Virus record (IMG/VR): IMGVR_UViG_3300032560_000933
Location: 1 to 23,109 of that record
DNA length: 23,109 nucleotides
Source of the DNA: a virus
Reading direction: 5' to 3' (one strand)
Shown here: piece after piece, positions 2,451-21,745 of the stretch
Numbering within the stretch: the first letter of the stretch is position 1
Layout of the letters: each line of letters opens with the position of its first letter
Position numbers and translations under genes: made by a program
Notes under the pieces: model-generated
Databases searched by the model: none
What the model was told of the DNA's origin: nothing
Seen by the model: only the letters and a program-made list of their open reading frames with translations

Positions 2451-2702
2451 ATGGTAAATCAGGAAGTGAAGTCAAATCCCCGCGTCATCCGTATCTTTGA
2501 TGACCTTGACGAATATCGTAATTTTTGTAGGGATTACGGTTACAGGTTTGATGAGAAGGATCTGTATAACTCTAAGAGTTATGTTTACAGGCAATTTCAG
2601 AAGTTGCTCTCAGGGAAGCCTGCAAAGAATCAGTGGGAGATTGATCTGGCTAAGTTTAAAGAAGAAGCTGCTATGGCTCCAGTGAGTCGCAGGCGCGCAT
2701 AA
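2451..2702 (+). CDS. Small conserved-looking phage protein, unknown function
   Basis: An 83-residue protein with a good ribosome site (AAAGGA, about 10 bases ahead of the ATG). No domain is recognised. It has an acidic N-terminal half with several aromatic residues (DLDEYRNFCRDYGYRF) and ends in a basic SRRRA tail. Its stop codon overlaps the ATG of the truncated glycosyltransferase copy in a TAATG junction. Before the endonuclease arrived, this gene and the glycosyltransferase were therefore probably translationally coupled. Confidence 0.65.
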   Translation: MVNQEVKSNPRVIRIFDDLDEYRNFCRDYGYRFDEKDLYNSKSYVYRQFQKLLSGKPAKNQWEIDLAKFKEEAAMAPVSRRRA

Positions 2703-2932
2703 TGAGAAAATTATGGTATTGTGGTTTAGAGCCTTATAATGCTCGTTACACGCTTCAACTGACTGATTGGAATACTGAGGTATTTGATCGTCGCGGCATT
2801 GATTATGTCATTGTGCCAGGCGATACGCTTGATGATAGCAAGGCCATCGTGACTGGTCAAGTGCTTGATGCTCATGGTCGCTCGTATTATAGCCTAAGCC
2901 AGATGATGCGTCTCGTGAAGTTGATGCGTTGA
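2702..2932 (+). pseudogene. Truncated 5' copy of the glycosyltransferase gene at 3724
   Basis: The 76 encoded residues align without gaps to the first 76 residues of the glycosyltransferase at 3724-4899. By eye 55 of 76 are identical, including RYTLQL, GQVLDAHGRSY and SQMM. Then a TGA stop appears where the complete gene continues for 315 more residues. Because it starts in a TAATG overlap with the preceding gene, this is likely the original, resident 5' end. Its codon style (CTT/CTG leucine, CGT/CGC arginine) is nearer to the body of the complete gene than to that gene's present first 80 codons. It lacks any catalytic region and is probably non-functional. Confidence 0.8.
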
Positions 2933-3012
2933 AAGCAGAAAACGAACGACTGTTTGCCTCTATGCTTACTATGGCATTAGATGAAGAAGTAAGAAAGGCT
3001 AATGAGAAATAA
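2923..3012 (+). pseudogene. Orphan 3' coding remnant (coiled-coil tail)
   Basis: Directly at the break of the truncated glycosyltransferase copy, a different reading frame gives a clean 29-residue tail (DALKAENERLF, then EEVRKANEK) ending in TAA at 3010-3012. It reads like the C-terminus of a coiled-coil protein and has no convincing start of its own; a TTG at 2929 is the only candidate. It probably marks a recombination or deletion junction. Its end overlaps the end of the leftward endonuclease gene by 14 bases. It may alternatively be a chance reading frame. Confidence 0.35.
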
Positions 3013-3595
3013 ATGTTTTAGGCATACGGCGTATGTAAACATTAGCTCTTGGAATGAATCCATTTTTCTTTTGTATACAGACGCGAATAGTTTCCCAGTC
3101 TTTTCGTTCTAATCGCGTAAGAACATTTACCTTACCTTTGATATATTCAACAGTTCCGTCAGCAAACTTTAATTCATAATACCACATGGCATTCAATTTC
3201 ATAGATTCTGATTTGGGTATGCCTAATCTAACTTTAGACATACGCTGTTTTGTGATGTCAGACGCAGGAGCAATGTTATAAAAATTAGACCCGCCGTTAT
3301 GAGCATTGATCCACATAGGATTAGATCTTGCGTCTATCTTATGGAGGAATCTAGATTCCCATTCTCTACATTCAGAAACTGTAGTAAAAGTTTTACGGAT
3401 ACTAACTGTAAAAGCATCAATGCCGTCTTGTGTAATAAGTTCTTTGACCTTTTGAGACGAGGTAAAATACTTTACCCAAAGATCCGTGGGTTGACAATGT
3501 TTACTATATCTGGACCCGTAATAACGCAAACCAGAAGGTATGTGAGTAATGATGTAAGTATATGGGGTGCGATCTACCGCTGTATAAATATTCAC
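2999..3595 (-). CDS. GIY-YIG-type homing endonuclease
   Basis: A 198-residue leftward ORF. The N-terminus has TYIITHIPSGLRYYGSR (about residues 13-29), which fits the first strands of the GIY-YIG fold as found in phage endonucleases, where the motif is often degenerate (here YI-x10-YYG-x-R). WESRFLHK in the middle could supply the catalytic Glu helix. The C-terminus is basic and could bind DNA. The start is GTG at 3593-3595 with AAAGGA upstream on the minus strand; an in-frame stop a few codons further up excludes longer starts. It lies between a truncated and a complete copy of the same glycosyltransferase gene, the expected signature of a homing event in that gene. Confidence 0.65.
   Translation of the reverse strand: MNIYTAVDRTPYTYIITHIPSGLRYYGSRYSKHCQPTDLWVKYFTSSQKVKELITQDGIDAFTVSIRKTFTTVSECREWESRFLHKIDARSNPMWINAHNGGSNFYNIAPASDITKQRMSKVRLGIPKSESMKLNAMWYYELKFADGTVEYIKGKVNVLTRLERKDWETIRVCIQKKNGFIPRANVYIRRMPKTFISH
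3583..3590 (+). promoter_or_regulatory. Exact T4 late promoter octamer TATAAATA
   Basis: An exact match to the T4 late consensus on the plus strand, inside the start of the leftward GIY-YIG gene and about 134 bases ahead of the complete glycosyltransferase gene. It could provide late transcription of that gene, but the octamer could also occur by chance within coding sequence. Confidence 0.35.
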
Positions 3596-3657
3596 GCTGA
3601 TGGTTCCTTTTCAACTGTTAGAGCCGGTGGATACTCCAATATCGCGATCGGCACTTT

Positions 3658-3665
3658 TATTTATC
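3658..3665 (-). promoter_or_regulatory. Late promoter octamer GATAAATA for the GIY-YIG gene
   Basis: The minus strand reads GTTTTGATAAATAA here, a 14-base string that occurs identically ahead of the gp88-like gene at 14087-14100. It lies 62 bases upstream of the GTG start of the GIY-YIG endonuclease. Confidence 0.5.
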
Positions 3666-3673
3666 AAAACATC

Positions 3674-3702
3674 TTGTGTATATTATCTAAATATGCTACA
3701 AT
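3674..3702 (+). promoter_or_regulatory. Possible sigma70 promoter ahead of the glycosyltransferase
   Basis: TTGTGT (3674-3679), a 17-base spacer and TACAAT (3697-3702). The -10 box matches five of six positions and the spacer is ideal, but the -35 box matches only three. It would give the complete glycosyltransferase gene its own promoter, now that it is separated from its former upstream partner. Confidence 0.4.
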
Positions 3703-3723
3703 AAATCATACAAGGAAAAATTA

Positions 3724-4899
3724 ATGAGAAAACTCTTTTATGTAGGACTTGAATCCTACAATTCACGCTATACACTACAACTCACTGAGTGGAATAAGCG
3801 TGTTTTTGATCGACGAGGATTAGATGTAGTGTATATAGAAGGTGAAACCTTAGATGACACTAATGCTATTTCTGTAGGGCAGGTGTTAGATGCTCACGGT
3901 CGCTCATATTTTAGTATGAGTCAAATGATGAATCTTGTCAAGATGATGAGAAATGGAGAAGTTACAAATGAAGATGTTATCTATTTTGAAGATATGTTCA
4001 CCGTCGGTATCGAGAGCTTACCTTACATTCTTGATCAGGTTGATCCCAGCAAGCGTCCTCGTATTTTTGTCCGCTGTCTAGCACAGACAATTGATCCTGA
4101 TGACTTCGTTCATGTTTGGGGTATGCAGAAGTGGATGGGTGATTATGAGAAGATGGTCAATGGGTTTGTGACTGGTGTCCTCGCGACTAGCGAAGAGATG
4201 GTCATGCATATGAAGATCGCAGGCTGGACTGCTCCTATCTATAATATCTCAGGACTTGCTTTCGGCAGGAACGAAGTCATGAGTCGTGTTGAGCGTATCA
4301 AGTCTTTCAATGATCGCCGTATGCGTGTGGTGTTCTCTGCTCGCTGGGATCAGGAGAAGCAACCAGACTTCTACATGGATCTTATTGATGCATGGCATGA
4401 GAAGTTCCCGAGTAAGAAGGTTGAATTTGTTGTCTGTAGTGGCAGCAAGTTACGTAGCAATAATGAAAGTTACATGCAGCGTACTCATAAGATGGTCGAG
4501 AACGGAAAGCTCACTGTCTATGAAGACCTTCAGAAGAACCAGTACTACGACATCCTAAATGATAGTCGTGTCGTGTTCAACTGTGCATTGCAAGATTGGG
4601 TGAGTAATACTGTCAGCGAAGCAGATGCCCTTGGATGTAATGTTCTGTATCCAGCGTATCGTAGTTTCCCTGAGACATTTGCAAACGATCATGAACGTAT
4701 GTACATTCCTTGGTCTATTGATGACGCTGTTAGTAAGCTGGATAATCTTATCAAGAAGGCTCATCCTAATATGGGCGCCATCAGTGATTGGAACAACGGG
4801 ACTATTGATCGTATCTGTGATATCATAGAAGGCAAGGGTGAGCAGTGGAATAGAATGGCTACTGACTATCGTAAACATACCAGAGAAAAGAAGTATTAA
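3724..4899 (+). CDS. GT-B family glycosyltransferase with replaced 5' end
   Basis: A protein of 391 residues that reads as a two-domain GT-B glycosyltransferase. The second Rossmann domain starts at FSARWDQEKQP (about 204-214). It continues with a VVCSG strand (237-240), LTVYEDLQKNQYYDIL, and the donor-binding region NTVSEADALGCNVLYP (295-310), like the GT4/GT1 C-terminal motif. The acceptor is unknown; being inside a DNA-modification block it may add sugar to a modified base. The start has a strong AAGGA site and a possible own promoter. Codon style changes at about 3960-4010: before this, Glu is mostly GAA and Arg is often AGA or CGA, while afterwards GAG, AAG and CGT dominate. This fits a foreign 5' segment joined to a resident body. 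The first 76 residues are 72% identical to the stranded copy at 2702. Confidence 0.75.
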   Translation: MRKLFYVGLESYNSRYTLQLTEWNKRVFDRRGLDVVYIEGETLDDTNAISVGQVLDAHGRSYFSMSQMMNLVKMMRNGEVTNEDVIYFEDMFTVGIESLPYILDQVDPSKRPRIFVRCLAQTIDPDDFVHVWGMQKWMGDYEKMVNGFVTGVLATSEEMVMHMKIAGWTAPIYNISGLAFGRNEVMSRVERIKSFNDRRMRVVFSARWDQEKQPDFYMDLIDAWHEKFPSKKVEFVVCSGSKLRSNNESYMQRTHKMVENGKLTVYEDLQKNQYYDILNDSRVVFNCALQDWVSNTVSEADALGCNVLYPAYRSFPETFANDHERMYIPWSIDDAVSKLDNLIKKAHPNMGAISDWNNGTIDRICDIIEGKGEQWNRMATDYRKHTREKKY

Positions 4900-5364: not shown

Positions 5365-6039
5365 ATGAGCTATAACAAAAATAAAACGGATCCCGAACTG
5401 GGCCGTAGAGTCCATGAACATCTAGTACGGGTTGGGGTTGAAACTCCAACATTAGAAAACAATCTTGACCGCAAGGATAAGATTGACGTTATTGAAGCAC
5501 ACTTTGCTAGCATCATGCGCGCCTTAGGACTTGATCTTAAGGATGACAGTCTTGCTGAAACTCCACTTAGATGGTCCAAAATGGTAGTAAATGAAACGAT
5601 GTGGGGGCTTGACCATGAGGCGTTCCCCAAGTGTACCACTGTTGTCAATAAAATGGGGTATGACGAAATGGTCGTTGAGAGGGGGATTACGGTGCAATCA
5701 CTGTGTGAGCACCACATTCTTCCTATAGTAGGAAAGGCTACAGTTGCATATATACCCAAATCTAAAGTTTTAGGTCTAAGTAAGATGCCTAGAGTGGTAG
5801 AATATTTTAGCAGGCGGCCGCAGATTCAAGAAAGACTAACCGAGCAAGTATACCATGCACTATGCTACATTTTAGAAACTGATGATGTAGCAGTGGTGAT
5901 TGAAGCAGAACACCTGTGTGTTTCTTCAAGGGGGGTTGAAGATACTAATGCCTCTACTATAACTAGTAAACTGGGACCGGCCTTTAAGGCTGACCCGGCT
6001 CTGCGAGCCGAGTTTATGAACTTGGTGGTGAAGCAATAA
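5365..6039 (+). CDS. folE: GTP cyclohydrolase I
   Basis: A 224-residue FolE, close to the 222 of E. coli. The zinc and catalytic residues are all present and keep the spacing of the E. coli enzyme: C114 and H117 in LCEHH, and C185 in HLCVSSRG. H116 and the GLSKMPRVVEYFSRRPQIQERLT helix region are also as expected. It opens GTP to 7,8-dihydroneopterin triphosphate, the first step of both folate and 7-deazaguanine synthesis. With queD and queE downstream, the deazaguanine branch is the likely purpose. The start has a strong AAGGAAGG site. The intact active site suggests a working enzyme. Confidence 0.97.
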   Translation: MSYNKNKTDPELGRRVHEHLVRVGVETPTLENNLDRKDKIDVIEAHFASIMRALGLDLKDDSLAETPLRWSKMVVNETMWGLDHEAFPKCTTVVNKMGYDEMVVERGITVQSLCEHHILPIVGKATVAYIPKSKVLGLSKMPRVVEYFSRRPQIQERLTEQVYHALCYILETDDVAVVIEAEHLCVSSRGVEDTNASTITSKLGPAFKADPALRAEFMNLVVKQ

Positions 6040-6040
6040 T

Positions 6041-6099
6041 ATAGAATCCAACCTCTTCCCAAGTTTTACCCCTCCATTCCGGGGGGAGGTTGGCTCTAT
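6041..6099 (+). other. Nested RNA hairpin between folE and the zinc-protein gene
   Basis: CCAACCTC (6048-6055) pairs with GAGGTTGG (6086-6093), eight base pairs without a mismatch. ATAG (6041-6044) and CTAT (6096-6099) extend the stem across a small internal loop. Inside, CCCC (6069-6072) can pair with GGGG (6081-6084) as a second stem. There is no T-run after it, so it is not a simple intrinsic terminator. It ends just before the AAGGA ribosome site of the gene at 6119 and could modulate its translation or protect the folE transcript. Confidence 0.5.
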
Positions 6100-6118
6100 T
6101 GAAGGATGGGAAAGTAGA

Positions 6119-6376
6119 ATGAGTAAGATTCCAGGCTCTACTTGGTTTGGCATTGATGTTATCGCCAAGCAGTGTGATCGCTGTAAAACTATACACAATG
6201 ATCCTATGGAAATTCAAGAGTTTCTATCATGGAGCGATCAATGTGGCTACGGGAACAAGACATTCGGAGACCTCACTGAAATAAGCATTGACCTTTGCCA
6301 ATATTGTGTCAAGGAAGTCCTCGGTGAATGGATGGTTGTTGAAGATACGGATACATGGGGTCCATTATTCGACTAG
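6119..6376 (+). CDS. Small zinc-binding protein, two CxxC pairs
   Basis: 85 residues with CDRC near the N-terminus and CQYC near the C-terminus, the arrangement of a four-cysteine zinc site. Between them lies EIQEFLSWSDQCGYGNKTFGD, of a kind seen in small conserved phage and bacterial proteins of unknown function. AAGGA lies about a dozen bases ahead of the ATG, directly after the hairpin at 6041-6099. It overlaps the next gene by 22 bases. No enzymatic motif is visible; a nucleic-acid or protein contact role is a guess. Confidence 0.75.
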   Translation: MSKIPGSTWFGIDVIAKQCDRCKTIHNDPMEIQEFLSWSDQCGYGNKTFGDLTEISIDLCQYCVKEVLGEWMVVEDTDTWGPLFD

Positions 6377-6576
6377 ACCTACACGGCATCCGCCACCAAG
6401 ATGTTGATCTACTTGTAGAAAACTTCATCCTGATGAATCAGAACCACTTCCCACTAACTATCATTTGCGGTAACAGCGTGAAAATGATTAAGCTAGTTGA
6501 AAATACCATAAATAGAATAGGATGCGAAGCATCAATGCTCAGATATGGATTCATTGTTGTTCAGCGTTTTAAATAG
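6355..6576 (+). CDS. Smr-like small domain protein
   Basis: 73 residues. IIRLDLHGIRHQDVDLLVENFI matches the start of the small MutS-related (Smr) domain with its LDLHG motif. PLTIICGNSVKMIKLVENTI takes the place of the usual xxIITGxGxxxLRxxV segment. The C-terminal strand (YGFIVVQ) also fits. The TGxGxHS motif of nucleolytic Smr domains is altered to CGNSVKM, so nicking activity is uncertain. The ATG at 6355 overlaps the previous gene and has only a weak ribosome site (GAAG). Similar stand-alone Smr-like ORFs are common in large phages. Confidence 0.65.
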   Translation: MGSIIRLDLHGIRHQDVDLLVENFILMNQNHFPLTIICGNSVKMIKLVENTINRIGCEASMLRYGFIVVQRFK

Positions 6577-6597
6577 CGGTCTTGGCGTCATTCCCGC

Positions 6598-6626
6598 TTG
6601 ACAAATTCTGCCGCCTATGATAGATT
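6598..6626 (+). promoter_or_regulatory. Sigma70-type promoter ahead of queD
   Basis: TTGACA (6598-6603) is a perfect -35, followed by a 17-base spacer and TAGATT (6621-6626, four of six). The 9-mer GCTTGACAA around the -35 recurs at the promoters near 17856 and 19525. It would drive queD, the phosphoribosyltransferase gene, the glycosylase gene and queE with host polymerase. Confidence 0.65.
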
Positions 6627-6644
6627 TAACATAGGAGAATAATC

Positions 6645-7118
6645 ATGTCAAAATATATTAGTACTAAGACTTATAAGCAATTAGGTCCAGTAGCCTATCG
6701 TCAATGGCGAGCAGATAGTCACTGTAATCAAGTGCATGGCTATGCTCTAAGTTTTCATTTTGAGTTTGAAGCAGACACACTTGATGCTCGCAACTGGGTA
6801 GTTGACTTCGGCGGACTTAAACCTCTTAAGGGGCTTCTTGAGGATTGGTTTGATCATGCCTTACTTGTTGCAGATGATGACCCCCAAAAGAAACATCTAC
6901 TCAAGTTAGGTGATCTTGGTCTTGCAAAGATCACACTAGTTGAAAAAACTGGTTGTGAGGGTATAGCAGATTTCTTATACAATTATGTAAATGAACAGTT
7001 CCTTCCTACTTATGGTTGGGGAGATCGTGTTTGGTGTTCAAAGGTAGAAGTTAGAGAGACTGATAGTAACATGGCAATGCGAGTTGGGCACAGATCGGAG
7101 ATTGTTATAAATGAGTAA
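6645..7118 (+). CDS. queD: 6-carboxy-tetrahydropterin synthase (phage-type QueD)
   Basis: 157 residues of the T-fold family. SHCNQVHGYALSF (residues 25-37) matches the C-x3-HGH segment with catalytic Cys27 and zinc His31, but the second His is Tyr33. His26 next to the cysteine may be another ligand. VVDFGGLKPLK (52-62), FDHALLV (Asp70-His71), TGCEGIADFLY (Glu105 in the PTxE position) and VEVRETDSN (Glu138) follow in order. It converts dihydroneopterin triphosphate from FolE to 6-carboxytetrahydropterin for QueE. The AGGAG site is strong and a sigma70 promoter lies directly upstream. It overlaps the phosphoribosyltransferase by 8 bases. From memory, the HGY variant is usual in phage QueD proteins. 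Confidence 0.9.
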   Translation: MSKYISTKTYKQLGPVAYRQWRADSHCNQVHGYALSFHFEFEADTLDARNWVVDFGGLKPLKGLLEDWFDHALLVADDDPQKKHLLKLGDLGLAKITLVEKTGCEGIADFLYNYVNEQFLPTYGWGDRVWCSKVEVRETDSNMAMRVGHRSEIVINE

Positions 7119-7659
7119 AGAGATACATTATAACAATGTTAATGAATTAGTTCACAATATTATAAGGCAAATTACACTAGATAGCTTTCGTCCAGATTAC
7201 GTAATAGGCATCACGAGGGGTGGCTTAGTTCCTGCAGTATTGATCAGTCACTATTTTAATATACCTATGCATACTCTTAAGGTAAGTCTTCGCAGTAGTC
7301 CTCAGGATACTGAATCAAACTGTTGGATGGCTGAGGATGCTTTTGGTTATGTTGATCTAGCGGAACGTGACACCCTTAAGAGCAGATGGGATACAAAAAA
7401 GCGTAAGAATATACTTATTGTTGACGATATAAATGATAGTGGAGCAACTTTTAACTGGATTAAAAATGATTGGGCACAAAGTTGTTTTCCCGATGAAACA
7501 CAAGCATGGAATTCAGTTTGGAATCACAATATAAAGTTTGCTGTTATGGTTGACAATGAAGCAAGTGATTTTGAAGGAATTGATTACTTTGGAGAAGCTA
7601 TCAACAAGATAGAAGATCCTGCTTTTATTCAGTTTCCATGGGAACGGTGGTGGAAGTGA
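7111..7659 (+). CDS. Type I phosphoribosyltransferase
   Basis: 182 residues. VIGITRGGLVPA (31-42) is the pyrophosphate-loop region, and ILIVDDINDSGATF (101-114) is the PRPP-binding signature with its two acidic residues. The protein resembles hypoxanthine/xanthine phosphoribosyltransferases, but the base-specificity part (C-terminal third, with FGEAINK and PFQFPWERW-like residues) is too divergent to name a substrate. It sits between queD and the glycosylase/queE pair with overlaps on both sides, so it is in the same transcript. It may salvage a purine or a deazapurine made by the pathway; that link is inferred from position only. Confidence 0.85.
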   Translation: MSKEIHYNNVNELVHNIIRQITLDSFRPDYVIGITRGGLVPAVLISHYFNIPMHTLKVSLRSSPQDTESNCWMAEDAFGYVDLAERDTLKSRWDTKKRKNILIVDDINDSGATFNWIKNDWAQSCFPDETQAWNSVWNHNIKFAVMVDNEASDFEGIDYFGEAINKIEDPAFIQFPWERWWK

Positions 7660-8072
7660 CCACTCCTATGCGAGATGATCTCATGGTCCAACAGCAGGTA
7701 AAAAATGCTTGGCAACATATGGTAGGAGTGATCATGTTGAATCAAACACATCGTGGCATGGTCAAGAAGGTCCTTCCGCAATTTTTACATATCTGGCCTA
7801 ACCATCTTGCATTAATCTTTAGCGAACCCCAAGAAGTCTATGATGTCATCTGGCCTCTTGGTATGATGACTATTAGGGAAAAAAGAATCCGCAAGATGTC
7901 AGAACAGTACTTGTCCTGGGACGGAAAAGATGCTACAAAGTTATATGGCATTGGAAAATACGGTAGTGACAGTTATGAGATTTTCTTCAAACAGAACTAT
8001 TCTGTCCAACCAACCGACAAAGAACTACTAAGATATCTAAAGGACATGGATTATGACACAAATCAAGGTTAG
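7638..8072 (+). CDS. HhH-GPD DNA glycosylase, MBD4-like
   Basis: 144 residues resembling the catalytic domain of MBD4 and related HhH-GPD glycosylases. VGVIMLNQT (29-37) opens the fold, WPLGMMTIREKRI resembles LKPLGLYDLRAKTI, and LYGIGKYGSDSYEIF (102-116) is the helix-hairpin-helix. QPTDKELLRYL puts Asp127 where MBD4 has its catalytic Asp (HPEDHKL). No iron-sulfur cysteines follow. MBD4 removes T or U opposite G. Here it may protect phage DNA from deamination products, or act on unmodified or modified bases; this is inference. The start is uncertain: ATG 7638 overlaps the upstream gene by 22 bases, and ATG 7668 would also keep the domain. Confidence 0.8.
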   Translation: MGTVVEVTTPMRDDLMVQQQVKNAWQHMVGVIMLNQTHRGMVKKVLPQFLHIWPNHLALIFSEPQEVYDVIWPLGMMTIREKRIRKMSEQYLSWDGKDATKLYGIGKYGSDSYEIFFKQNYSVQPTDKELLRYLKDMDYDTNQG

Positions 8073-8934
8073 TGAACTCTTTTATAGTGTTCAGGGCGAG
8101 GGCCGATATCAAGGTGTTCCAAGCATATTCCTGAGAACTTTCGGATGTAACTTCACATGCGGTGGCTTCGGTATGCCTAAGGGCAAGGTGTCCGGTGAGC
8201 GTGATACTATCGCTTTTATGCATGGAAACCATCCTTATAAGGAATACAAGGATCTACCCTTAGTCAGTACTGGCTGTGACTCTTACGCCTCATGGGATCC
8301 TCGCTTTAAGCATCTGTCCCCGATGATGGATATTGATTCTATTGTTGATAAAATTATGGAACTGCTACCGTTTGGAGAATGGCGGGACGAACACTTAGTC
8401 ATCACTGGTGGTGAACCACTATTAGGTTGGCAACGTGCTTATCCTGAACTGCTGAGTCATCCTAAGATGAAGGGTCTCAAGGAGATAACCTTTGAGACAA
8501 ATGGCACTCAGCCACTGTCAGATGATTTTGCTAAGTACCTAGATGACTGGCGTTGGGAAGCGGTATCAGGCGAGGAGACCGGATTTTCCTTTAATCGTGA
8601 GATTACTTTCTCTGTCAGTGCCAAGCTGAGTTGTTCAGGCGAATCTCGCGAGGATGCCATCAAGCCTGATGTCGTTTGCAGGTATGAAGATGTAGGTACT
8701 GCATATCTCAAGTTTGTTGTTGCGACGGAAGATGACATCAATGAGGCATTGGAAGTTGTTAAGATTTATCGTGACGCTGAGTTTGAAGGTCATGTATATC
8801 TGATGCCAGTTGGCGGTGTACAGAGCGTATATGCCCTAAACAACAAAAATGTTGCGGCCGCAGCAATGAAACACGGTCTTCGTTACAGCGATAGACTTCA
8901 TCTACCTTTATTCGGTAATGGATGGGGAACCTAA
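8053..8934 (+). CDS. queE: 7-carboxy-7-deazaguanine synthase (phage-type QueE, radical SAM)
   Basis: 293 residues. YSVQGEG (11-17) and FLRTFGCNFTC (26-36) are hallmark QueE motifs. The radical SAM cluster uses C32 and C36, but the third cysteine (C75, in TGCDSYASWD) follows an insertion of 38 residues, instead of standing in CxxxCxxC. ITGGEPLL (117-124) and FETNGT are the SAM-binding motifs. The enzyme contracts 6-carboxytetrahydropterin to CDG. AAGGA precedes the ATG, and the gene overlaps the glycosylase gene by 20 bases. Length and the split cluster agree with phage QueE proteins, as far as I recall them. QueC, which would turn CDG into preQ0, was not found. Confidence 0.92.
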   Translation: MTQIKVSELFYSVQGEGRYQGVPSIFLRTFGCNFTCGGFGMPKGKVSGERDTIAFMHGNHPYKEYKDLPLVSTGCDSYASWDPRFKHLSPMMDIDSIVDKIMELLPFGEWRDEHLVITGGEPLLGWQRAYPELLSHPKMKGLKEITFETNGTQPLSDDFAKYLDDWRWEAVSGEETGFSFNREITFSVSAKLSCSGESREDAIKPDVVCRYEDVGTAYLKFVVATEDDINEALEVVKIYRDAEFEGHVYLMPVGGVQSVYALNNKNVAAAAMKHGLRYSDRLHLPLFGNGWGT

Positions 8935-14342: not shown

Positions 14343-15224
14343 ATGAAAACATGCATGATTTGTAATAAAGAATACCGAGATTTAACAAAACACATTAAGA
14401 TGGCTCATAAATTAACCAAAGATGCAGCATATGATTTAATGTTGCAGCACTTTCCTGAACTGTTTGCGTCTTGCACCGTATGTGAGGGGAAAATCAAAAA
14501 AACTGTGGGTGCTGGTGGAAAGATGACATGTAGCCAAGAATGCAGTAAATTAGCTAAAAGTAATGTTAATAGGGAACGGAAACAATCAACCGATGTCATC
14601 AACCGCCGAATACTGAACACTGATCAAACAAAAAAACAAGCTGCTCGTAAAAAAACTATGTTGGAACGTTACGGAAGTTTATATGCACCCAAAGATGCGG
14701 TTGCTAGAAACAATAAACTCAGGGGACAGAAACGCCCGCGATCAGTAGAACATCAAACCAATATCATTGATTCTAAAAGAAAAAACGGAACATTAAAGCA
14801 TACCGAATTAGCTAAAGAGAATATCAGAAAAGGTGTTAATAAAGTTTATCAATCTGATAATCCGCCATGCACCATTTCATCCGGATCCCCAAAGGGGTAT
14901 ATTACCGGAACCATAAATGAAATATATTATAGGTCAAGCTACGAATTGAAGTTCTTAAAATATTGCCATAGTAATAATATTGATGTGAAATCCGCAAGCA
15001 CTACGGAATTTAGAGTAAGATATGTAACCGATGATGGTAAGCAACATTATTATTACCCTGACTTTTATTTGCCAGATTACGATTGTATTATTGAGATAAA
15101 ACCACTTGACATGATAACAGATTTAGTACACACTAAAAGTCATGCATGTGCGTTAGAATATAACTTTTCACTGGTAACGGAAGAAGAATTAAATGATCTG
15201 TCTGCGTTTTTTAAAAAACTTTAG
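14343..15224 (+). CDS. Homing endonuclease, zinc-finger plus PD-(D/E)xK type
   Basis: 293 residues. The N-terminus is a C2H2 zinc finger (C4, C7, H17, H22), followed by a second cysteine set (C44, C47, C63, C67). The basic middle region (80-170) has repeats typical of DNA-binding homing-endonuclease linkers. The C-terminus is a restriction-like nuclease: YRSSYELKFLKYC (Glu201), YYYPDFYLPDYD (Asp240) and IIEIKP (Glu251, Lys253). All expected catalytic residues are present, so it may be active. It lies between the truncated and the complete copy of the MNIF-family gene. Many phage-borne free-standing endonucleases have this zinc-finger plus nuclease design. Confidence 0.8.
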   Translation: MKTCMICNKEYRDLTKHIKMAHKLTKDAAYDLMLQHFPELFASCTVCEGKIKKTVGAGGKMTCSQECSKLAKSNVNRERKQSTDVINRRILNTDQTKKQAARKKTMLERYGSLYAPKDAVARNNKLRGQKRPRSVEHQTNIIDSKRKNGTLKHTELAKENIRKGVNKVYQSDNPPCTISSGSPKGYITGTINEIYYRSSYELKFLKYCHSNNIDVKSASTTEFRVRYVTDDGKQHYYYPDFYLPDYDCIIEIKPLDMITDLVHTKSHACALEYNFSLVTEEELNDLSAFFKKL

Positions 15225-20581: not shown

Positions 20582-21745
20582 ATGTTTTTCTTCATAGGAG
20601 ATGAAGCACCACTACAAGCACTGCACAAAGTCCACGATAGGCTCTATCTGGATGATGGATGGTCCTCTACTGTAGTGTCAGGTGAGATGGTATGGTTTAA
20701 AGGATATAGCACTGACTGCACTCTTTCAGATGATATTGCTGCTGTAGTTTCTCATGGATATCGTCCTGCAGGTAAATGGTGTGCTATCGTATCGTATGGT
20801 GATAATTATGAGATCATGCATCCTCCTCTAAGAGGGTTTCCGCTGTATGAGAGAGACAAGTTTAGTAGGACAAATCTAAAATTAGAAGCATATACACCAG
20901 TATGTTACGACGGACCTCATATCAATGAACAACCGGCTCTTACTTTAGAACAAGCATCGACCATAATCGGTGATATTCTCGTAGAAAATACGGTCAATTT
21001 TTTGAAATATACCAAAGTTAACGAGATGAATGTATTATGTTCTGCTGGACTTGATACGATGACATCTTGGGCGATACTAGATAGCGTTACTAAAAATTAC
21101 ACACTACATGCTTATGTTCCTAAACAAACTGATAGAACATTACATGAACATTTAGGAAGGATCCGTGAATACGAATCTGATCTTTTAGATAAAGTATCCC
21201 AAGATTATTGGGGATATGATGTGATGAATGCATTTAAGGACCTTAACTGGTATGCCACTGGGTACTATGCAGAAACTATGCAACTCCGTCATGGAGCAGG
21301 GCAAAGAGCAGTCGCTAATTATCAGGGTAAACATACACTAGAAATGCTTGAAGAGACAGATTATCTCTACTGGTTTATACAAAGGGCTGATATTGCTAAG
21401 AGACATGATGGTGACAAATTAATTTTTAAGGATGAGCAAGAATTAAAAGACTATATATATCATACGATTTTCCATGACTATCAGATGTGGCACATTGATA
21501 ATAATATGACGTTCAGTCCGTTTGCTGATTCTCGCATCGCTCAAGTTTCTTATAGAATGTCAATCGCAGATATGACTGCTAATTGTAAGAACGGTGATGT
21601 TCAGCGTAATATTATTAAACGATTCAAGCCTGAACTTCTATCTTTGGTCTCAGACTACAAGAATTCAAAAGATGTATGGGCTAACTTTAGGAAGAACTTC
21701 GCTAATATAACTTTAGATCCACAAGTAAGGGTGAAAATACGATGA
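20582..21745 (+). CDS. Asparagine-synthase-like PP-loop protein with degenerate amidotransferase half
   Basis: 387 residues. The N-terminal 110 residues resemble a class II glutamine amidotransferase shell (PLRGFPLYE at 82-90), but residue 2 is Phe, not the catalytic Cys. The second half starts with NVLCSAGLDTMTSW (150-163), a PP-loop in which SGGxDS has become SAGLDT. PFADSRIAQVSYRM and the following Lys/Arg-rich end match the C-terminal part of AsnB proteins. QueC zinc cysteines are absent, so this is neither QueC nor a normal Gat-QueC fusion. It may form an amide on an unknown carboxylate using free ammonia. CDG is an attractive candidate because queC is missing, but this is speculative. 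AGAGGTG precedes the ATG. Confidence 0.65.
   Translation: MFFFIGDEAPLQALHKVHDRLYLDDGWSSTVVSGEMVWFKGYSTDCTLSDDIAAVVSHGYRPAGKWCAIVSYGDNYEIMHPPLRGFPLYERDKFSRTNLKLEAYTPVCYDGPHINEQPALTLEQASTIIGDILVENTVNFLKYTKVNEMNVLCSAGLDTMTSWAILDSVTKNYTLHAYVPKQTDRTLHEHLGRIREYESDLLDKVSQDYWGYDVMNAFKDLNWYATGYYAETMQLRHGAGQRAVANYQGKHTLEMLEETDYLYWFIQRADIAKRHDGDKLIFKDEQELKDYIYHTIFHDYQMWHIDNNMTFSPFADSRIAQVSYRMSIADMTANCKNGDVQRNIIKRFKPELLSLVSDYKNSKDVWANFRKNFANITLDPQVRVKIR

Follow-up and report, generated by a model that had tools for sequence, protein, structure and literature searches.

A phage glycosyltransferase gene with a replaced 5' end beside an endonuclease gene and its stranded original 5' end, an arrangement recurring at the same gene start

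The complete glycosyltransferase-like gene (GT) of a lake virus is a hybrid. Its first ~100 codons match phages that carry, or probably once carried, a GIY-YIG endonuclease gene directly upstream, and its body matches phages lacking that gene. The original GT 5' end is stranded upstream as a 76-codon stump. Comparable stumps occur beside GIY and HNH endonuclease genes in other phages, and by their sequences this arrangement arose repeatedly, with unrelated endonucleases, at the same GT start. The window, meaning the whole 23,109-nucleotide stretch analyzed, is a 23.1-kb IMG/VR virus fragment, and the features of the locus are as follows.

2451..2702 (+): 83-aa gene upstream of the stump; homologues lie directly upstream of GT in most relatives
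2702..2932 (+): stump, the stranded original GT 5' end (76 codons), with a TGA after the junction
2917..2929 (unstranded): left junction, 13 nt GAAGTTGATGCGT, overlap of two homologies (GT and donor small gene)
2917..3012 (+): 3' remnant of a small donor gene (EVDALKAENER..KANEK, then stop); L068 has ..EIEALRAEN..RKANEK and a stop directly before its endonuclease gene
2999..3595 (-): SegE-like GIY-YIG homing endonuclease gene, 198 aa, GTG start
3724..4899 (+): complete GT, 391 aa, with its own start
3724..4025 (+): replacement GT 5' end, codons 1 to ~100 (97-100), by DNA identity to L048/L056/L068
3741..3745 (+): codons 6-8 (T GTA G), TAC-ATG-GGN block in recoded form, proposed target region
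4026..4127 (+): zone of the right junction, in which similarity passes from carriers to endonuclease-free relatives (identity profiles and breakpoint scan)
4128..4899 (+): resident GT body, GT-B type glycosyltransferase-like (nucleotide identity to relatives; weak Pfam Glyco_trans_1_2 match)

In relatives, the 83-aa gene normally overlaps the GT start (TAATG or ATGA), and this coupled start was found in ~50 distinct loci. In the window, the stump holds that position, its start overlapping the stop of the 83-aa gene via TAATG, as the earlier note had read it. An assembly chimera was ruled out, as the same DNA was present in contigs of four other IMG/VR samples (L082/L096, L083/L097 with 100% over 2381 nt, L090, and L100); a search of the window's own record returned the window only. 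One gene upstream, a second endonuclease-like gene (1601-2371, - strand; PHROG 5104, a region common to the HNH family) has counterparts in L008-type (62%) and L048-type (45%) phages. Another endonuclease-like gene (14343-15224, + strand; PHROG 22215/15137) may be the third mobile nuclease of this 23-kb stretch. The folE, queD-like, and queE genes at 5365-8934 and 20582-21745 suggest 7-deazaguanine chemistry, possibly for DNA modification.

The 72% identity that had been estimated by eye between the stump and GT codons 1-76 was reproduced by counting (55/76 residues; 149/228 nt, 65%). As third positions matched in just 28/76 codons, the stump and the GT 5' end are old, diverged homologues. The GC content at third positions was 0.42 in the stump and 0.47 in the GT body versus 0.32 in the first 97 GT codons and 0.31 in the endonuclease gene, in agreement with the impression that the stump resembles the body and that the GT 5' end looks foreign. 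The nearest relatives of the stump were the endonuclease-free L008 and L018 (74.1%, rank 1-2 of 173), and the window's own complete GT ranked 72nd. A group I intron or intein with an endonuclease was rejected because no splicing rejoins the gene: the stump is closed by a stop codon, and the GT downstream of it has a start of its own and is complete.

The GT comparison set comprised 169 distinct 5' ends from viral contigs, in which GT relatives were abundant; a search of cultured-phage DNA returned only Synechococcus phage BUCT-ZZ01 (63% aa identity), which lacks the endonuclease. Identity profiles were computed in 30-nt windows. From 3714 to 4013, GT was 97-100% identical in DNA to L048 and L056, and from 3904 to 4023 it was 100% identical to L068, after which identity dropped to ~65-80%. 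The endonuclease-free L008, L018, L023, and L004 showed the reverse profile, being closer past the junction and not at the GT 5' end. Accordingly, codons 1-76 were nearest to L048 (99.1%), L056 (99.1%), and L068 (86.4%; 86-89% over the 5' end), whose bodies ranked only 110th, 92nd, and 148th of 172, with 64-66% nucleotide identity versus 73-77% for L002, L028, L003, and L008, all without the endonuclease. Both outcomes had been predicted from the window: a 5' end shared with phages carrying the same endonuclease, and a stump and body shared with phages lacking it. A two-parent breakpoint scan was best at about 4053-4127, with the last perfect donor match near 4025. The hybrid proposed in the earlier note thus holds, but its junction lies near 4026-4127 rather than at ~4000.

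The maximum-likelihood trees of the GT 5' end and body conflict. In AU tests, the clade of the window with L048, L056, and L068 was rejected for the body (p = 1e-9), and for the 5' end, grouping the window's GT with the stump (p = 7e-6) or with its body relatives (p = 4e-54) was rejected. A single history of the whole gene (3724-4899) is rejected; the two parts are incompatible. In the 5' tree, there is a deep split into two groups that does not follow the body groups (L008 versus L002), and the GT 5' end has therefore been widely exchanged.

The endonuclease matched PF19835 SegE_GIY-YIG (5e-7, above the cut-off) and PHROG 314 homing endonuclease (6e-16), and R29, E80, and N97/N100, the expected catalytic Arg, Glu, and Asn, were invariant among nine relatives. 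By domain and catalytic residues, it is a predicted homing endonuclease of the SegE GIY-YIG type. Homologues occupy the same place in L048 (95% identical) and L068 (92%), directly upstream of GT and with no stump, and we take both to be donor-type loci from this layout. The gene is absent from L008 and other related phages. This presence and absence, with a co-converted flank (shared GT tract of ~290 nt), is as in free-standing homing; homologous exchange on both sides with no duplicated gene end was not found here, as GT codons 72-76 run into a donor gene tail at the left junction. L056 has the GT 5' end of L048 and no endonuclease. Upstream, L056 and L048 share 93% identity as far as an AAATCAT word, and a second copy of this word stands immediately 5' of the GT ribosome-binding site; deletion of the intervening ~800 bp is therefore probable, which would make L056 an ex-carrier.

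On the left side, the stretch 3' of the stump (2917-3012) reads EVDALKAENERLFASMLTMALDEEVRKANEK up to a stop, and L068 has a 62-aa gene ending in EIEALRAENKFFKDLMGDVEILRKANEK and a stop immediately 5' of its endonuclease gene. From this resemblance, the donor block begins inside that small gene. The element claimed earlier, an endonuclease with a substitute 5' end that restored an intact hybrid and displaced the old end, is supported by the mosaic identity and the AU tests; its extent has to be enlarged by the donor gene tail left of the endonuclease, which had not been claimed. The 13 nt GAAGTTGATGCGT fit GT in one reading (..VKLMR) and the donor small gene in another (EVDAL..), as joining by microhomology would predict, and we infer such a join. 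The exact 13-nt word, sought in other loci, occurred only in the window's lineage, so the parental sequences at this junction remain inferred.

The interval from the 83-aa gene to GT, here called the slot, was compared across phages. It held 17 distinct endonuclease-carrying loci (10 GIY and 7 HNH-type), and stumps at the coupled start were found in 9/17 of these versus 1/48 loci with other inserts (p = 7e-6). L086 and L087 also have GIY genes, lying 3' of GT stumps with 11 and 14 codons, respectively. In L113/L117/L257 and L118, an HNH-type endonuclease gene (PHROG 559, 1e-16) follows an 11-codon stump, and its stop overlaps the start of the complete GT. Between stump codon 7 and GT nt ~87, the only differences in DNA between the L113 type and L118 are 3 mismatches in the 780-bp HNH gene, and beyond GT nt ~87 GT identity falls to ~70-80%. 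L050/L112 retain a 3-codon stump and the last ~26 HNH residues before the same 5' end as the L113 type, and L062/L116 and L123/L134 similarly show a stump, an HNH tail, and a new 5' end; L050, L062, and L123/L134 read as fossils of the HNH element. A related HNH gene (HNH-B) in L231, L263, L264, and L279 follows degenerate stumps without codons ~3-8. Each of these beat 200 shuffles, clearly so in L264 only, and they are probably, rather than certainly, genuine. C-terminal stumps, sought with one motif, were not found. The insertion read in the earlier note stands, but as one instance of a recurring mode and not as a one-off landing.

Other genes also occupy this position. A CTP-transferase-like/cupin gene is present in about 20 distinct phages (L014, L015, L016, L025, L029, L033, and L148, for example), which makes the slot a general cargo site. 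In L087 (reverse strand), a MazG-like gene follows the 83-aa gene, and the interval from stump to GT contains, besides the GIY gene, an AAA-type ATPase and a putative DNA-binding nuclease. In L204 (4289-5075), a 74-bp exact repeat, present both in a ~30-codon GT stump and in the complete GT, flanks a 207-aa gene that has no Pfam match and is not an endonuclease; the GT differs in the first ~18 nt only.

We consider it likely that the GT start is a homing hot spot, at which repair of a broken resident GT from donor DNA produces a hybrid and strands the old 5' end. During co-infection, the donor phage would have carried the order small gene, GIY-YIG gene, and GT with an altered 5' end. A break in the resident GT, presumably made by the endonuclease, would have been repaired from this DNA in a one-sided manner. 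Homology within the GT body (4026-4127) would have served for the join on the right, from which copying would have proceeded leftward across the donor's GT 5' end and endonuclease gene and into the small gene; on the left, a short homology at stump codons 72-76 would have completed the join. The donor allele would then have had a small gene containing GAAGTTGATGCG, and the recipient a GT continuing from codon 76; the outcome would be an intact hybrid GT and a stranded old 5' end. This account connects the observed hybrid, its donor-type and recipient-type relatives, the junctions, and the recurrence with unrelated HNH-type elements; donor and recipient are represented by relatives, neither being exactly sampled.

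The slot could instead be a general recombination hot spot in which the endonuclease is one cargo among several and stumps are by-products of illegitimate crossovers. The about 48 distinct loci with non-endonuclease inserts, including the ~20 with the CTP-transferase-like/cupin gene, and the stump and repeat of L204 fit such passive hitch-hiking. We regard it as unlikely, since stumps are concentrated in endonuclease carriers and so is a recoding of GT codon 7, which was seen in just 4/48 of the other inserts.

GT nt 16-24 read TAC ATG GGN in most relatives, a block conserved in phages without the endonuclease. Codon 7 was non-Met in 13/17 carriers versus 15/151 others (p = 7e-9), with the ex-carrier L056 counted among the others and the pattern noticed in the same data on which it was tested; in the first set alone, the count was 13/14 versus 15/151. 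The tally of 17 takes in the later-found L270 and L279, plus L263. L270 (GIY) keeps Met7 and has Ser for Gly8 and no CNNNG, L279 (HNH) keeps the ordinary site including CNNNG, and L087 and L263 are the earlier loci that do not fit. Among 12 independent pairs on the body tree, about 10 showed the same direction and 0.3 the opposite one (median p = 0.004); with fossils added, 15 independent pairs gave p = 0.0005, and GIY pairs, too few on their own, gave a median p of 0.125. As the carrier forms are diverse (GTA, GTC, GTT, ATA, TGT, and TGC), the recoding arose repeatedly. I-TevI requires CNNNG (PMC4065259), and CNNNG at GT nt 18-22 was found in 0/10 GIY carriers, L270 included, versus 96/151 others (p = 7e-5). 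This rule fails for the HNH carriers as a group, the motif being kept in 1/5 and in the later-found L279.

The replacement 5' end may thus protect its carrier, the recoding around codons 6-8 being a candidate for self-protection at the endonuclease cut site. It is less probable, in our judgment, that the recoding is an effect on translation: in carriers, GT is no longer coupled to the 83-aa gene, and the ATG at codon 7 could be an internal start, but other inserts break the coupling too and yet keep Met7 in 44/48, and GIY carriers lose C18 besides the ATG. In the self-protection reading, the window has a complication. Its own stump reads TAT TGT GG at this site, that is, non-Met and without CNNNG, and the first 23 nt of the stump are equal to those of the HNH-linked 5' end. 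As the stump was already recoded, the break that created it was probably not at codons 6-8, and the event may be a second invasion. The break in this lineage was probably near codons 76-100, made by the endonuclease if it cuts there, or else by something else.

A tandem GT duplication in which the endonuclease was then inserted and the first copy decayed, suggested by the two homologous, 72% identical 5' ends, is rejected as scarcely credible, as two complete GTs were found in no relative retrieved, with or without the endonuclease, a sister relation of the copies is rejected (AU p = 7e-6), and the second copy is itself in conflict between its halves.

We put at even chances the broader proposal of a class of phage homing elements that target the start codons of a gene, carry a cleavage-resistant substitute 5' end, and thereby insert harmlessly in coding sequence. 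GIY-YIG and HNH endonucleases would each have adopted this mode separately at a single glycosyltransferase, and the cycle would run in full from invasion through loss to scar. By supplying a replacement end, a selfish nuclease could then enter coding sequence with neither intron nor intein. The arrangement recurs often enough to be studied, natural phages offering alleles of the donor, recipient, hybrid, and fossil types, and it provides a predicted target (GT codons 6-8, TAC-ATG-GGN) together with a resistance change. It also advises caution, as the first ~100 codons of such genes may differ in ancestry from the rest.

Among known systems, homing endonuclease genes at recombination boundaries have been described (PMC10448857), and in the open-access literature no phage was found for which a supplied 5' end and a stranded stump had been described, which is weak evidence of absence. 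The free-standing homing endonucleases of T4-type phages (SegE, SegF, SegG, and MobE; PMC2988022) are similar in that a SegE-like GIY-YIG or HNH gene lies between conserved phage genes, flanking sequence is co-converted, and the target, putative here, is in the neighboring gene. In T4-type intronless homing, however, flanks are exchanged homologously on both sides without a stump, and the text of that review has no mention of fragments or duplications; here, a stump is left, and the HNH element begins inside the GT it invades. Endonuclease genes inserted within conserved coding sequence are also known from Aeh1 nrdA/mobE and T4 topoisomerase/mobA (PMC2988022), but those genes were left as two working pieces, whereas GT is restored whole by a supplied 5' end. 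There is also a likeness to the mobile ORFs of fungal mitochondria, including the parallel in atp6 drawn in the earlier note, which is documented for Allomyces atp6 and for Glomus atp6, atp9, cox2, and nad3 (PMC3630166). There, too, an endonuclease ORF in a gene comes with a replacement end, the hybrid is intact, the old end is stranded, and the foreign end has a different phylogeny. The window has the endonuclease, the replacement gene end, and the stranded old end of such a gene-restoring hybrid, at the 5' end. Relative to the fungal mitochondrial cases, in which gene 3' ends are replaced, the trick is thereby carried over to phages and to gene 5' ends; a new start region is supplied, and two unrelated nuclease families use one site.
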